A DNA stretch of 50,187 bases from IMG/VR virus record IMGVR_UViG_3300018422_000112, positions 1 through 50,187 of that record; one strand, written 5' to 3'. The DNA is from a virus. The translations under genes were made by a program, and so were the position numbers. Positions 1,768 through 18,211 of the stretch are shown in pieces; position 1 is the first letter of the stretch, and each line of letters starts with the position of its first letter. Under the pieces are notes generated by a model that had not been told where the DNA came from, searched no databases, and saw only the letters and a list, made by a program, of their open reading frames with translations.

Positions 1768-1941
1768 TCACGCCGCCCTCCCATAGCTCTCCGGCCCCAG
1801 CGGAATAGCCGTTCCACAGAAGGCGCATTCGGCCGACAGCCGCCCGATCAGCCAACTGCTACGGCCACAGCCCGGACAAGAGCATCCAGGTTTGTGACGG
1901 ATGACGTAGCCTCTATGGTGGGGATCGTGGGGAAGGGTCAT
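1768..1941 (-). CDS. Small zinc-ribbon-like protein
   Basis: A protein of 57 residues. CSCPGC near the middle and CAFC about 20 residues later form a CxxC-CxxC pair typical of small zinc ribbons. The start at 1941 is chosen because GGAGG lies 8 nt upstream and the ATG overlaps the TGA of the QueD-like gene in an ATGA junction, so the two are translationally coupled. The target is unknown; such ribbons bind nucleic acid or act structurally. Some reverse-strand frame extends seven codons further upstream but lacks a ribosome-binding site. Confidence 0.65.
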   Translation of the reverse strand: MTLPHDPHHRGYVIRHKPGCSCPGCGRSSWLIGRLSAECAFCGTAIPLGPESYGRAA

Positions 1942-2243
1942 GGGTGGTCCTCCGATTTCCATCTGGCGTAGAAGCGCTCCAAGGGCCGCCTGACTTCGAC
2001 CTCAACGCAATTGGCGAGGCAGCCAACAGCGCGAGCAATATCCTCGCCCCAAGACATATCCTCTGGCAGAACTTTATGATCCCAGAGGCTGACGACGCTC
2101 TGGAGGGCCGCCTTGAAACAGCGCGCGTCGGCCCTGTTCACATTCCGAAACCAGGCGATAACCTCGTAGCTGTGCCCGTGCATCTCTCCCTCAGGAGACT
2201 TGTGCGAGGCGCTGAATACTGCCCCAACTCCGGTAAGGATCAT
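1938..2243 (-). CDS. QueD / 6-pyruvoyl-tetrahydropterin synthase-like protein
   Basis: A T-fold protein of 101 residues related to QueD, which makes 6-carboxytetrahydropterin, the second intermediate on the way to preQ0. Visible family features are the three zinc-binding histidines H14 (FSASHK), H22 and H24 (HGHSY), the Asp-His pair D55-H56 (LWDHKVL), and glutamates near the C-terminus. The catalytic Cys that normally lies just before HGH is missing: the loop here reads SPEGEM. The protein is also shorter than the usual 120 residues. The start at 2243 is preferred because GGAG lies 8 nt upstream; a start at 2273 is possible. It overlaps the DpdA/TGT-like gene, which supports a shared role in 7-deazaguanine DNA modification. 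Fold assignment is good; activity is uncertain. Confidence 0.72.
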   Translation of the reverse strand: MILTGVGAVFSASHKSPEGEMHGHSYEVIAWFRNVNRADARCFKAALQSVVSLWDHKVLPEDMSWGEDIARAVGCLANCVEVEVRRPLERFYARWKSEDHP

Positions 2244-2995
2244 GCCGACGCTCCAATCTGTCGGCATAGGCATTGCGACCGGACCAACGCTCTGGGGCTG
2301 GTAACTCGCCGAAGATGGAAAGCTGGCGTGGGGGCTGATCCTGCCAGTCGTAGCGGTGCCCGTTTTGCGCTAACGTGGTCGCGTCCGCTCCGATAACGGG
2401 ATATTTGTGAGCCTCTGCAGCCCCCCGCAGCAGATGTGTTGGATGCCAGCGGTTTCCATAGAATCGATCTATTTCGTCCATCTTCCGGCGAAAGGCATCG
2501 CATCCTACCGGCTCGCGCTTGGGATGGCCGATCCAGCCGAGACAAACACGGTCGAATCGTTCGCAGAGATGCCCTAGGCGCTCTATTCGGCCATTCATAT
2601 GATAGACAGGAGCGCCCTTGCTCCGGCCAAAAGGCCAGTCGTTCAGTAGGGCGTCGTTGAGTTGGGAAGGGGCGCTTGGGCTGTCCGGAGTCACGGCCCA
2701 ACGTCCCGGAAGGAATAGCCGCGGCTCTAGCCATGCATAATAGGCGCGCCACCATGCGTCTCGTCTTTCTTGGTCCCACTCTTGACCGGCCCGCATCGCC
2801 GACATCCAGAACGAATATCCGCCGTGGTCGAAACATTATGTCGGGGCATATGCCCTCGACTGCCTCCATATCGTCCGGGCGGTAGAAAGAGACGCAGGCA
2901 GCTCGCCCGAGCAACACGGCAAGCAGCGCAGCGCGCGGAGTCAGCGGAGTGCCGTGGTAAATCGTGGGCAGACTTAGGCCGTCCTCTCCCATCAT
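2191..2995 (-). CDS. DpdA/TGT-like guanine transglycosylase, +1 frameshifted
   Basis: Two frames together make a protein of 267 residues resembling tRNA-guanine transglycosylases and phage DpdA, which swap guanine for a 7-deazaguanine in nucleic acid. Frame one starts at 2995 (GGGAG 7 nt upstream, ATGA overlap with the HNH gene) and gives LPTIYHGTPLTPRAALL through GICPDIMF. At TTT-C-GAC (2833-2827) skipping one C leads into DHGGYSFW, the likely match to the catalytic Asp motif D-S/N-G-G-F, then PGRWAVTPDSPSAPSQLND, GWIGHPK, HLLRGAAEAHKYP and GADATTLAQNG. The second frame alone (from 2805) lacks the N-terminal part and the Asp motif. UUU followed by CGA, with UUC available in the +1 frame, is a plausible programmed slip site; a one-base insertion that kills the gene is the alternative. 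The adjacent QueD-like gene supports the family call. DNA versus RNA as substrate is inference. Confidence 0.68.
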
Positions 2996-3687
2996 GACGG
3001 GCTCCCTTGGGGGATGAGGTCGAGGCGCTTGGCGAGGCCGTCGCGGTTGTTCCAGTACATTCCGGGCAGTGAGCCGCCTGGCCCAGTCACTTCGCCAAGG
3101 CCGCGCCTTTTGAGTGCTCGCGCCGCAGCATAAAGCTGACTGGTGGTCAGCTCGACGCCGCAACCTTCTTCGCCGGTGGCATCGTCAGGACAGCTTGCGA
3201 TCAGCATTCGGCGCATGGGGTTAGAAAGGCCCATAATTCCGGCCTCTTTCTTTTTCCTTCTGGCGCGCCGAGTAGATTCCAGCGCGCAGGCTCGGCACCG
3301 CTGCCTTCTCTTCCCATCCGGGAAGACGACCCGAAGAGTGTTTGCTTCATTGAAGGGGTGGCCGTTCTTACAATGGGTGGGCTCTCGATTGTTGAGCCGC
3401 CCCTTGGAGAGAGCGTCCTGGATGTTCTCCAGTTGCGTCCCCCACCACAGATGCGCGGGGTTCACGCAAGGCGGATTATCGCAGGAATGCAGAGCAAAAT
3501 GAGCCTCGGTGGGCCTGCTGCGCCCGTCCGTCTCCAGGGAGATGTGAGTGGCCCTGCGGAGGGTGCCTTTGTGGTGAAAGGCGCCGTAACCTTTCCCCTG
3601 TGTCTGGCCCCGCCAAGGCCAGCACTCGTCCGGCTCTTGCCTATCGATCTTGCTCCAGAAGAGAGCGGCGGTCTGCTCGTCAATCAT
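2992..3687 (-). CDS. HNH endonuclease with extra C-terminal domain
   Basis: A protein of 231 residues. The HNH core reads HSCDNPPCVNPAHLWWGT at about residues 83-100 and is followed by NIQDALSKGR and a CxxxH...CxxC zinc segment, the usual pattern of phage free-standing HNH nucleases. From about residue 152 (MGLSNPMRRMLI) the sequence changes to a compact winged-helix-like segment with its own ATG and an AAAGAGG upstream, so it may be an independent small gene or a fused DNA-binding domain. The start at 3687 has GGAGGT 5 nt upstream; longer N-terminal extension is unlikely. The end overlaps the DpdA-like start by ATGA. It may be a homing nuclease or a packaging-associated nick enzyme; only nuclease activity is supported. 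Confidence 0.85.
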   Translation of the reverse strand: MIDEQTAALFWSKIDRQEPDECWPWRGQTQGKGYGAFHHKGTLRRATHISLETDGRSRPTEAHFALHSCDNPPCVNPAHLWWGTQLENIQDALSKGRLNNREPTHCKNGHPFNEANTLRVVFPDGKRRQRCRACALESTRRARRKKKEAGIMGLSNPMRRMLIASCPDDATGEEGCGVELTTSQLYAAARALKRRGLGEVTGPGGSLPGMYWNNRDGLAKRLDLIPQGSPS

Positions 3688-3735
3688 CCCGCACCTCCCC
3701 CGGCATGGATGGTGGCCGGGCGCTCTTGTCATCAC

Positions 3736-4929
3736 TCACGGCCATTTCCGGCACTCCTTGCATTGATCGCCGTCGTGCATGTTGCTGAATTCGGTTGCGG
3801 GTTTGGTCTCGCCACAGAGACAGCACAGCCTGGTGGGCGGCATGGATACTGGGTCAGCCAGACTCGCGAGGCTCGCCGCCTCTTGCAGCAGCGCCACATA
3901 GCGAGGCTCGATCCCGTCGTAACTGTCGGCGGAAATGCCATCGTGAGCTTGTACGAACAGCGCCAGCGCGCGGCGGTGCATGGATACTGGGTCAGGTGAG
4001 GGTGTAATATCAGCCAAGCCGCTCAGAACGATGCTATCGGACTGACCCTGAAGGTAGGCGCGCTGGATGGCGCGGAGGGCTATGTCTCTTCCTTCGGGCG
4101 CTGGGAGAAAATTCATCCTCCCGTCTCGCATGCACTGAGCGGTATTCGGCTGCCCAGCCGCCTCATATTCAGCCGCCAGCAACTCCCGCGCCCGCTGCTC
4201 GACATCTCCCGCCGGACTTATTTGCATATCGTGCAAACAAGTGGCTGCAGGCATGGTGGGCGATGGGGAAAGGGCGGCATCGATTTCCGCAAGAAGCGTG
4301 CGGCATGTCGGAGCGACAGTTTGGTTCTCGATCGCGGGCTCCATCTCGGCCAACGTGATAGGAATCTCGACGTAGCGCCGAGCTCTTTTGAGAAGCGCCC
4401 GCAGCCCCGCTTCCCCGGCACCTTCGGATGCGGGCCGGAAGTGAACGATCCCGGCTTCGCGACGGTGCTCGATAGCCTCCATCAGAGTAGCGAGCCGGAC
4501 GCCAGCGCGAATTTCCATCGCGGGCGGTAGCCTTACATCGCACGGGAGGACGGCACCTTCGGACGATCGAACCCGCAAGCTTTCGTTGCCGGTTGGGGTG
4601 GATTCGGATGGCTTGGGAAGGGCGGCGTCGTAGCGCGTGATAAAGGCTTCCGCAGCCTCGCAGGCGTCCAACAATTCATCGTCAAATCCGGCTCTCCCGC
4701 CGCTCGTATAACCCCTGTAAGTGAGCCGCCTCAGAAGCCTGACCGCCTCCCTCGCGTCCCCTCCGGATAGGGGAGGGCGGGTGTTCCAACGGCCGATAGG
4801 GTCGTCTTCGCCTGGCATTGTCGCCCAACAAGTGAGGCAGCTTATCGACTCGATGCGCCATTTGTAACCGGTGATTATGCTCGCCTTGCCACCGCAAAAC
4901 GGACAGGGTTTCAGCTTATCGTCGCTCAC
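3736..4929 (-). CDS. Lar-family restriction alleviation protein, mosaic
   Basis: A protein of 397 residues. Residues 1-55 carry the Lar signature: KPCPFCGG, then CLTCW, then IGRWNTRP. Lar-type proteins lessen host type I restriction, in known cases by raising self-methylation. The rest is a chain of unlike segments, including an acidic helical part, a part ending LADITPSPDPVSM, a repeat of DPVSM, and a C-terminal CxxC-CxxC zinc segment (CCLCGET...CKEC). Family members are commonly well under 150 residues, so this looks like several small modules fused in frame. An 18-bp repeat at 3840 and 3978 marks the last junction. It starts by ATGA overlap with the following upstream gene. Confidence 0.75.
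   Translation of the reverse strand: MSDDKLKPCPFCGGKASIITGYKWRIESISCLTCWATMPGEDDPIGRWNTRPPLSGGDAREAVRLLRRLTYRGYTSGGRAGFDDELLDACEAAEAFITRYDAALPKPSESTPTGNESLRVRSSEGAVLPCDVRLPPAMEIRAGVRLATLMEAIEHRREAGIVHFRPASEGAGEAGLRALLKRARRYVEIPITLAEMEPAIENQTVAPTCRTLLAEIDAALSPSPTMPAATCLHDMQISPAGDVEQRARELLAAEYEAAGQPNTAQCMRDGRMNFLPAPEGRDIALRAIQRAYLQGQSDSIVLSGLADITPSPDPVSMHRRALALFVQAHDGISADSYDGIEPRYVALLQEAASLASLADPVSMPPTRLCCLCGETKPATEFSNMHDGDQCKECRKWP
3840..3995. repeat. 18-bp direct repeat inside the Lar-like gene
   Basis: GCATGGATACTGGGTCAG occurs at 3840-3857 and again at 3978-3995, 138 bp apart and in frame (138 is divisible by three). Each copy encodes DPVSM. It may be the scar of a module insertion or an internal duplication boundary. 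Confidence 0.6.
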
Positions 4930-15947: not shown

Positions 15948-16718
15948 ATGGGCCGCGTCGAGCAAATCGGACGCGCCATGCTCTATCTGGGCGACTGCGG
16001 CAAAATCCTTCCTACACTCGCCGACGGATCGAGCGAAATCGCCTTCACGTCGCCGCCCTACAATCTCGGCGAGGGGATGGAGCGCAAGGGCGGCCTCAGA
16101 GTCGGCCATGCCGGCAGCAAATGGGGCAGCGACAAGCTCCGGAAGGGGTACGGCGCGCACGATGACGCCATGCCGTATCCCGAATATGTCACTTGGCAGC
16201 GGCGGATCACAGCCGAGCTGTACCGCGTCGTCTCGGGCGCCATCTACTACAACCACAAGCCGCGGGTCGTTAAACGCACCCTCCGATCCCCGCTCGACTT
16301 GATCGACGCGCCGGTTAGGCAAGTCATTATCTGGGATCGCGGCTCCGGCTTCAATTGCATGGCCGGCGCCTACATGCCGGTATGCGAATGGATCGTACTT
16401 GCGGCCAAGCCCGACTGGTCCCTTCGCGACAAGTCCGCCAGCGCAGTGGGGGACCTCTGGCGCGTACCGGCCACAGCCGACCCAGACCACCCCGCCTCGT
16501 TCCCCGTGGCGCTTCCGACCCGCGCTCTCCAGACCAGCGGCGCGGCAAGCCTGATCGATCCCTTCATGGGTGTAGGAACCGCCGGCGTGGCCTCCGTGAG
16601 CATGAACCGCTCGTTTGTCGGGATCGAGCTGAACGAAGCCTATTTCGATATCGCCTGCCAGCGGATTGAGGACGCCCAGCGCCAGACGAGCCTCTTTGAA
16701 ACGGGGGTCGCGGCCTAA
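15948..16718 (+). CDS. Solitary DNA methyltransferase (beta-class, TSPPY)
   Basis: A protein of 256 residues. Motif IV TSPPYN is at residues 34-39 near the N-terminus and motif I DPFMGVGTAG at about 204-213, the beta-class order of N4-cytosine or N6-adenine methyltransferases. LYLGDCGKILPTL at the start and VGIELNEAYFDIACQRI at the end are family hallmarks. No restriction enzyme gene is adjacent, so it most likely protects phage DNA or alters host regulation. Sequence specificity cannot be read from the sequence. It follows the previous gene with no gap. Confidence 0.92.
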   Translation: MGRVEQIGRAMLYLGDCGKILPTLADGSSEIAFTSPPYNLGEGMERKGGLRVGHAGSKWGSDKLRKGYGAHDDAMPYPEYVTWQRRITAELYRVVSGAIYYNHKPRVVKRTLRSPLDLIDAPVRQVIIWDRGSGFNCMAGAYMPVCEWIVLAAKPDWSLRDKSASAVGDLWRVPATADPDHPASFPVALPTRALQTSGAASLIDPFMGVGTAGVASVSMNRSFVGIELNEAYFDIACQRIEDAQRQTSLFETGVAA

Positions 16719-16895: not shown

Positions 16896-17367
16896 CCAGC
16901 AAGTCCGCCGCAAACGGCGTTCGTTTTCCGCGTCTCGCGCGGTCGAAATAGCCGGGCGCGTGCTGCTCAAGATCAAGTCGGACGACAATCTCACCTATTT
17001 CGAGTTGGGGCGGATCATCGGCAAATCGGCGGATCAGGCGGAGCGCATCGCCAAGGGCAACTCCACCATGGACATGCCAACCTTTCTCGCTGCCTGCGAT
17101 TACTGGGGCGAGCGGTTCGCTGATCGCGTGCTGGCGCTTACGAACCTTCGCACCGCCCCCTGCGGCGCCAAGTGCAGCACGGACCATGACGGCGGCCTGG
17201 CGCTGGCGAGGCTTCTCCCGCCCATCCTTGAGGCCGAGGCTGACGGGGAGGCTACGGCGACCGAACTGCGACCGCACGAAAACCTCATCCGCAAGGCTCA
17301 CCAGAAGACAGGCCACTGGCTGGAGATCATCGCGGCCGAGCCGATCGTTCAGGCGGTGCGGGCATGA
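16888..17367 (+). CDS. HTH-type phage regulator
   Basis: A protein of 159 residues. The basic N-terminus (RRKRRSFSASRAVEIAGRVL) is followed by a helix-turn-helix-like stretch LTYFELGRIIGKSADQAERI then AKGNSTMDMPTFLAACDYWG. It could bind DNA as a regulator of the middle genes. Coupled to the following membrane peptide by ATGA. Its target is not known. Confidence 0.7.
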   Translation: MPDQQVRRKRRSFSASRAVEIAGRVLLKIKSDDNLTYFELGRIIGKSADQAERIAKGNSTMDMPTFLAACDYWGERFADRVLALTNLRTAPCGAKCSTDHDGGLALARLLPPILEAEADGEATATELRPHENLIRKAHQKTGHWLEIIAAEPIVQAVRA

Positions 17368-17567
17368 GCCGCGCCACGCGCTTCTTGGCACGGCATTTTG
17401 GCCTTTGCGTGGCCGCAGCGGTCTGTGTTGCCGGCGTCGTGCTCTTCAAACTCGACCTGAAGACTACGGCAATCGTCGTCGTGTCGATCGGTGCGCTTTG
17501 GATCGGCGATGCCTGGGACGAAGATACGAGTGGCGACGCAGCCAACCGGCTGAAGGGGGCGGCGTGA
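17364..17567 (+). CDS. Small membrane protein
   Basis: A protein of 67 residues with two hydrophobic segments, FGLCVAAAVCVAGVVLF and TTAIVVVSIGALWIGDAW, and a polar tail. It is joined to the genes on both sides by ATGA and GTGA overlaps. Function is unknown. Confidence 0.7.
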   Translation: MSRATRFLARHFGLCVAAAVCVAGVVLFKLDLKTTAIVVVSIGALWIGDAWDEDTSGDAANRLKGAA

Positions 17568-18211
17568 GCCAGAACACCTCATCGGCGGTTATGCAACGGC
17601 GGAGCGAGCCGCACGACTCGCTGGACGATTTCCCGACGCCCCCCTGGGCGACCCGCGCGCTGTGTGAATGGCTTAATCGCCGTGGCGAAAACATAGGCCA
17701 GCTCAACTGCCGCGAGCCTGCGGCCAATCGCGGTCACATGGTTGCGCCGTTGCGCGAGTATTTCCGCCGCGTCGAGGCCAGCGACATCCACGATTATGGC
17801 GTAGGCTATCCGGTCGAGGACTATCTGTTCGGGCCTCCGCCAGAGCATGTCCACTACACCATCACGAATCCTCCTTTCCGCCTCGCCGAGCAGTTCATCG
17901 ACAGGATGACCGCGACAAGCGATTTCGGCTTTGCGGTCATCGTGCGCGCAGCCTTCTTGGAGGGCGTGGGCCGCTACGAACGGCTGTTCAGCAAGAACCC
18001 GCCCAGCTTCGTCCTGCAGTTCTCAGAGCGAGTCGTGATGCACAAGGGCCGGTTGGCCCCGGAGGGGTCAACCGCCACGGCCTATGCTTGGCTGGTCTGG
18101 ATCGAAGGCGAGGATGAGACGCGCCTCGAATGGTTTCCGCCCTGTCGTAAGCGCCTCGAGCGCGCGTCGGACTATCCGGCTGAGACCTCCAAATTCTCGG
18201 AGGCAGCATGA
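17564..18211 (+). CDS. Second DNA methyltransferase (NPPF motif)
   Basis: A protein of 215 residues with a GTG start overlapping the previous TGA and GAAGGGGG upstream. Motif IV is NPPF (HYTITNPPFRLAEQFI) and the likely motif I region is LNCREPAANRGHM, an imperfect version of the usual EPAAGxG. DDFPTPPWATRAL at the start is typical of phage N6-adenine methyltransferases of this type. It is not paired with a nuclease. The degenerate motif I leaves room for reduced activity. The open frame continues far upstream but overlaps known genes there. Confidence 0.82.
   Translation: MSQNTSSAVMQRRSEPHDSLDDFPTPPWATRALCEWLNRRGENIGQLNCREPAANRGHMVAPLREYFRRVEASDIHDYGVGYPVEDYLFGPPPEHVHYTITNPPFRLAEQFIDRMTATSDFGFAVIVRAAFLEGVGRYERLFSKNPPSFVLQFSERVVMHKGRLAPEGSTATAYAWLVWIEGEDETRLEWFPPCRKRLERASDYPAETSKFSEAA

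Follow-up and report, generated by a model that had tools for sequence, protein, structure and literature searches.

Is an enzyme gene that changes reading frame directly before an invariant catalytic-motif aspartate a broken gene, or one that is expressed by programmed +1 ribosomal frameshifting? The question is raised by a dpdA-like gene in IMG/VR virus record IMGVR_UViG_3300018422_000112, a prophage-like stretch of 50,187 nucleotides (hereafter, the window). Two minus-strand frames, 2995-2831 (55 codons) and 2829-2191 (212 codons), meet at ATG TTT C GAC, with TTT at 2833-2831, C at 2830 and GAC at 2829-2827, and skipping one base yields a single stop-free protein of 267 residues. This layout is exactly as claimed in an earlier note made from the sequence, which proposed either a programmed +1 site at UUU_CGA or an inactivating insertion with, at most, recent decay. 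From comparison with relatives, we put the probability that the prophage dpdA is expressed by programmed +1 frameshifting at about 0.92. The parts of the gene are as follows.

2831..2995, minus strand: dpdA 0-frame part, codons 1-55, with homology to the N-terminal end of relatives that need no shift
2191..2829, minus strand: dpdA +1-frame part, from GAC (D56, the DxG-motif Asp, which is invariant) through its stop codon, assigned from a PHROG_887 match, +1-frame constraint and a structure model
2240..2830, minus strand: 0-frame extension expected for non-shifting ribosomes, 197 codons long counted from the slip codon and closed by TGA at 2242-2240

A frame change conserved among dpdA relatives

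Relatives were gathered from IMG/VR and GTDB contigs and compared with a frameshift-tolerant aligner, giving 100 distinct genes. The earlier note held that uniformly uninterrupted homologues would indicate mutation or sequencing error; we found that 43 of the 100 require exactly one +1 shift, and that the joined frame is free of stops in all 43. The other 57 genes are unshifted, including four fragments in which the site may be missing. At the joint, every shifted gene carries UUU in frame, with a pyrimidine as the next base (C in 42, U in one), and the UUU_C expected from the first set was present in all seven shifted members found only in later scans.

The shifts fall mainly at two places, each next to one of the two invariant aspartates, D56 and D204 (alignment of 30 relatives), which we take to be the TGT catalytic Asp pair. 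In the 29 genes of the q55 group, AUG_UUU_CGA is invariant, followed by C or U, and lies before the first invariant Asp; the joint in the window thus recurs at the same residue, with the same +1 shift, in 28 other distinct relatives, far beyond what chance would give. The 12 genes of the q200 group have no shift at q55; theirs is at CCG/CCC_UUU_C, immediately ahead of the second invariant Asp. Two singletons shift elsewhere in dpdA, at UUU_C or UUU_U (L006, identical to L077, at q83, and L047 at q51); these could be ordinary mutations. In a tblastn search, four relatives with 55-66% identity also changed frame as the window gene does, at the corresponding residue. Shift states are clustered on a maximum-likelihood tree built from 59 genes and require nine changes in all, with q55 genes in two separated parts and q200 genes in three places. 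Few carriers were found when genomes of the order were scanned with query A1.

The +1 frame appears to be the one in use after the site. Downstream of it, positions 1, 2 and 3 of the +1-frame codons differ among q55 genes at 0.258, 0.223 and 0.553, a pattern similar to that of unshifted genes (0.178, 0.161 and 0.521), which indicates that selection there follows the +1 frame. The 0-frame extension shows no coding constraint of its own. The position of the shift can be narrowed further, since a +1-frame stop lies between the Shine-Dalgarno (SD)-like sequence described below and the slip codon in 17 of 29 q55 genes, and L052 has a 0-frame TAA two codons past the TTT, so that the shift is confined to AUG_UUU_CGA. 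Within these nine bases only UUU to UUC offers good re-pairing. A +1 step also makes the protein exactly as long as its unshifted homologues (M-Y/F-D-N-G); a -2 step leaves one residue extra. The slip tetranucleotide is of a known kind; UUU_Ynn is prone to +1 shifting in bacteria (PMC5009743). On the strength of this conservation, the programmed site proposed in the earlier note is strongly supported.

A separate observation concerns L067, where a 356-nt insertion (404-759) lies inside dpdA exactly at q199/200, flanked by the repeat ATATCCAT. Its length is not a multiple of three, and reading without it restores the frame. Searches of the insertion against Rfam and for tRNAs gave no match above noise.

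The slip site and its upstream signal

Two elements that the earlier note had missed, an SD-like GGAGG and a hairpin, precede the slip site in the window; it had likewise missed the second, equivalent site in other relatives.

2827..2836, minus strand: slip site AUG_UUU_CGA_C, with predicted +1 re-pairing of peptidyl-tRNA-Phe from UUU to UUC; AUG_UUU_CGA in 29 of 29 q55 genes
2863..2867, minus strand: Shine-Dalgarno-like GGAGG, 29 nt ahead of the first T of the slip codon
2840..2860, minus strand: 5' hairpin GUCG-a-GGGC-AUAU-GCCC-CGAC, predicted from minimum free energy, covariation and synonymous-recoding tests

The GGAGG, at -34 to -30 with CGA as the A-site codon, is present in all 29 q55 genes, about 30 nt before UUU, as opposed to 2 of 63 genes without a shift there. 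When the same peptides were recoded at random with synonymous codons, it appeared in a mean of 7.5 genes and a maximum of 14 (300 trials), against the 29 observed. In L035, where the local amino acids have changed, GGAGG is retained but moved 2 nt downstream. The hairpin lies between GGAGG and UUU and leaves about 6 nt between its 3' arm and the slip codon. In q55 genes it has a mean energy of -10.5 kcal/mol, compared to -5.2 in unshifted genes, and its stability far exceeds that of synonymously recoded versions (z = -9.9). Both sides of the pairing changed in 22 cells as opposed to 11.1 in shuffles, and the covariation score of 0.291 (0.154 in shuffles) was reached in none of 500 shuffles and was lost on sliding the partners. 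Some of the genes use a second pairing register, which by itself is less clear.

The q200 site is arranged in the same way. It is preceded by a G-rich SD-like sequence in 11 of 12 genes, compared to 16 of 81 genes unshifted there, and the hairpin ends equally far from UUU, with an energy z of -4.9 and a covariation score of 0.259 (0.118 in shuffles; 0 of 500 as high). Covariance models of the two signals, run over 0.7-0.9 Mb of these contigs, gave strong matches in dpdA only: model R1 found dpdA alone in 871 kb, and model R2 rose above noise in dpdA and in one weak L042 match unlike a shift site. An Rfam search returned no family. A stimulatory structure on the 3' (downstream) side was considered and rejected, as RNAalifold over 160 nt paired mainly upstream.

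Our combined findings suggest that this is a natural bacterial +1 signal, made of a 5' hairpin and an SD-like sequence, which has probably originated or relocated on more than one occasion inside a single phage enzyme gene, standing before each invariant Asp so that active enzyme would be made only through the slip. We infer that hairpin and SD-like sequence stimulate the shift, and that the slip proceeds in the following manner. With the ribosome at codon 54, the upstream hairpin would refold at the mRNA exit side, with the SD-like sequence behind it. The P site would then hold UUU and the A site the rare CGA, slow to fill. In one sphingomonad carrier (Sphingobium, 31,573 codons) CGA is among the rarer sense codons, at 2.7 per 1000, and UUC outnumbers UUU nearly six to one. 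The tRNA-Phe (anticodon GAA) would leave UUU and pair with UUC, a better match lying one base downstream, and translation would resume at GAC, the codon of the invariant first Asp. Ribosomes that stay in the 0 frame would read on through roughly 200 unrelated codons without producing enzyme, and the shift would therefore set the amount of DpdA. That it limits or regulates the dose is suggested by analogy with fseA of Mesorhizobium integrative and conjugative elements (ICEs), in which a +1 shift lowers the amount of product (PMC10359603).

Several points weigh against programmed frameshifting or its proposed mechanics. The support is comparative throughout, and the genes are related, making the counts non-independent, a problem that the synonymous-recoding and slid-partner controls relieve in part. 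Avoidance of other in-frame UUU_C within these dpdA genes was not found. At some q200 sites the A-site codons are common ones (CGC, CCG). Finally, the SD-like sequence stands 24-29 nt ahead of the slip codon, compared to the 3 nt known for +1 stimulation, and thus its action needs the hairpin, or it has another role; once the hairpin has folded, the path along the strand shortens to about 7-8 nt.

Alternatives to a programmed shift

An insertion or a sequencing error that broke an otherwise intact gene would agree with a comparison of the window with the unshifted L012, L013 and L019 (TTC GAC), from which it differs by a single extra T. However, 29 distinct genes from independent assemblies share the shift, the selection on the +1 frame, the absence of stops and the conserved signal, and the adjoining QueD gene gives single unbroken matches. 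Conservation rules out decay or error at both q55 and q200, and with the same shift in 29 distinct genes the inactivating insertion or recent decay offered in the earlier note is excluded for the window; only for the singletons (q83 and q51) is such an event conceivable, and as a general explanation we regard it as very improbable. Equally hard to credit is a split enzyme, whose N-terminal 55 and C-terminal 212 residues would be translated separately, the latter from an internal start, and then assemble. The strong SD-like sequence upstream of the junction speaks for it, but a +1-frame start codon follows it before the junction in just 1 of 29 q55 genes (TTG), as opposed to a stop in 17, and the first downstream ATG or GTG comes 7-73 codons later, with loss of the DxG motif. 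Moreover, the 0 frame is usually open through the joint, and the unshifted relatives are single proteins. Internal initiation is rejected on these start and stop counts. Reinitiation on queD by ribosomes terminating in the 0 frame was also discarded: the 0-frame stop is often near the queD start, but at an inconsistent distance.

Two further possibilities accept the shift and differ in what accompanies it. Hairpin and GGAGG might serve pausing, RNA stability or an operator, which the SD spacing, outside the known +1 range, would favor; given that signal and shift co-occur at two places in the gene, with the hairpin equally distant from UUU, we consider this unlikely, but not negligible. Alternatively, production of DpdA could be tied to the preQ0/queuosine supply, if the shifted A-site codon, GAC or GAU, were read by a queuosine-modified tRNA. 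The +1 codon at q55 is indeed always GAC or GAU, yet this follows from the invariance of the Asp at that position, and the +1 codons at q200 (GTC, ATC, CAA, GCA, ACC, GCC, AAA and CGC) include none of the queuosine family. Such feedback is unsupported by the q200 codons and appears quite improbable. Programmed +1 frameshifting is thus the reading we adopt below.

The enzyme, known systems and neighboring genes

The joined protein is best annotated as a predicted short phage DpdA/TGT-like base-exchange enzyme, because of its match to PHROG_887 'queuine tRNA-ribosyltransferase' (E 2.5e-21, residues 12-211) and the adjoining QueD-like gene. The function proposed in the earlier note is thereby upheld, although its expectation from profile searches held only in part: PHROG_887 matched, whereas Pfam TGT and NCBIfam profiles gave nothing above threshold for the joined protein. 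A tblastn search with it found 102 phage records, many labelled queuine tRNA-ribosyltransferase, and a sequence search of the PDB found no match. An AlphaFold2 model from 30 relatives (predicted local distance difference test score, pLDDT, 80.5) has alternating strands and helices, and several of its structural neighbors in BFVD are phage queuine tRNA-ribosyltransferases (E to 1.2e-5). Its top PDB match is weak, a chain of the Cap10-CdnD complex (E 6e-3, template modelling (TM) score 0.47), and support for the TGT fold comes mainly from the PHROG match and predicted phage structures. The Zn-binding CxCxxC of tRNA TGT is absent on inspection of the 267 residues, and for this reason the product is not filed as a tRNA TGT. 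In L043, a q200-type relative, Glu replaces the first invariant Asp (MYENG), and the enzyme of this relative may therefore be inactive.

Like previously described phage DpdAs (9g DpdA, nt-1 DpdA2 and singleton DpdAs; PMC6884629), the window protein is a TGT-like PHROG_887 member near QueD, but it is a short form, and no frameshift is described for those DpdAs. No paper joining DpdA with programmed frameshifting was found in the open-licence PMC literature, nor, in the same literature, the gene, the hairpin-plus-SD architecture or its relocation between two catalytic positions.

Among known +1 systems, fseA (msi172-msi171) of Mesorhizobium ICEs resembles dpdA in residing on a mobile element of alphaproteobacteria and shifting +1 on UUU. 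However, it encodes a transcription activator rather than an enzyme, with a conserved Trp-Gly before the site (PMC5009743). Sphingomonad fseA-like loci (L196, L200 and L201) have candidate sites UUU_CGC and UUU_CCU after Trp-Gly, two of the three without a dpdA-like hairpin; L201 has a hairpin, GAGGCC-UGG-GGCCUC, that likewise stops 6 nt short of UUU. The release factor 2 gene prfB shares with dpdA a +1 slip of the P-site tRNA, an upstream SD-like sequence and a slow A-site codon, whereas in dpdA the A-site codon is a sense codon, a hairpin intervenes and the SD-like sequence is 24-29 nt away. In influenza A PA-X (UCC_UUU_CGU), tRNA-Phe slips from UUU to UUC with CGN in the A site (PMC3498833); this is a case of the eukaryotic ribosome without homology to dpdA, and in the passages of that report consulted no such upstream hairpin or SD signal was seen. 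On 70S ribosomes in E. coli extract, +1 shifting is stimulated by synthetic reporter hairpins placed against the E site (PMC6321510), whereas the dpdA hairpin is natural and covarying.

Most phage frameshifts known to us serve structural proteins. Here, production of a DNA-modification enzyme appears to depend on frameshifting in a wide range of phages, those of sphingomonads among them. To our knowledge, a 5' hairpin as a +1 stimulator has so far been known from designed reporters; dpdA provides a natural case, backed by covariation, in which it is the likely stimulator; there are two equivalent sites, and relatives without the shift serve as controls. Because automatic gene calling would break such genes up or drop them, DpdA is probably under-counted in these phages.

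The genes on either side of dpdA both overlap it.

1938..2273, minus strand: QueD-like gene of the 6-pyruvoyl-tetrahydropterin synthase family, which overlaps the last part of dpdA; PF01242 at E 3.5e-4, just under the cut-off
2992..3735, minus strand: upstream HNH endonuclease gene, PHROG_826 at E 9e-32, overlapping the dpdA start by ATGA

The dpdA ATG at 2995 thus overlaps the stop of the HNH gene. A QueD relative adjoins dpdA in about two dozen of the fetched loci, and tblastn showed one, annotated as 6-carboxytetrahydropterin synthase, next to the DpdA homologue of Caulobacter phage DMCA. In the unshifted clade (L016, L018, L022 and others) queD lies just upstream of dpdA; in shifted genes (the window, L049 and L056) it lies downstream, often overlapping.

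The window is prophage-like, with an integrase (1-1200), an Erf-like recombinase, replication genes and DNA methyltransferase genes. Two methyltransferase-like genes are on the plus strand (15948-16718 and 17186-18211), and a Lar-like restriction-alleviation N-terminus is found at 3736-4929 on the minus strand; the phage may therefore carry several anti-restriction measures.
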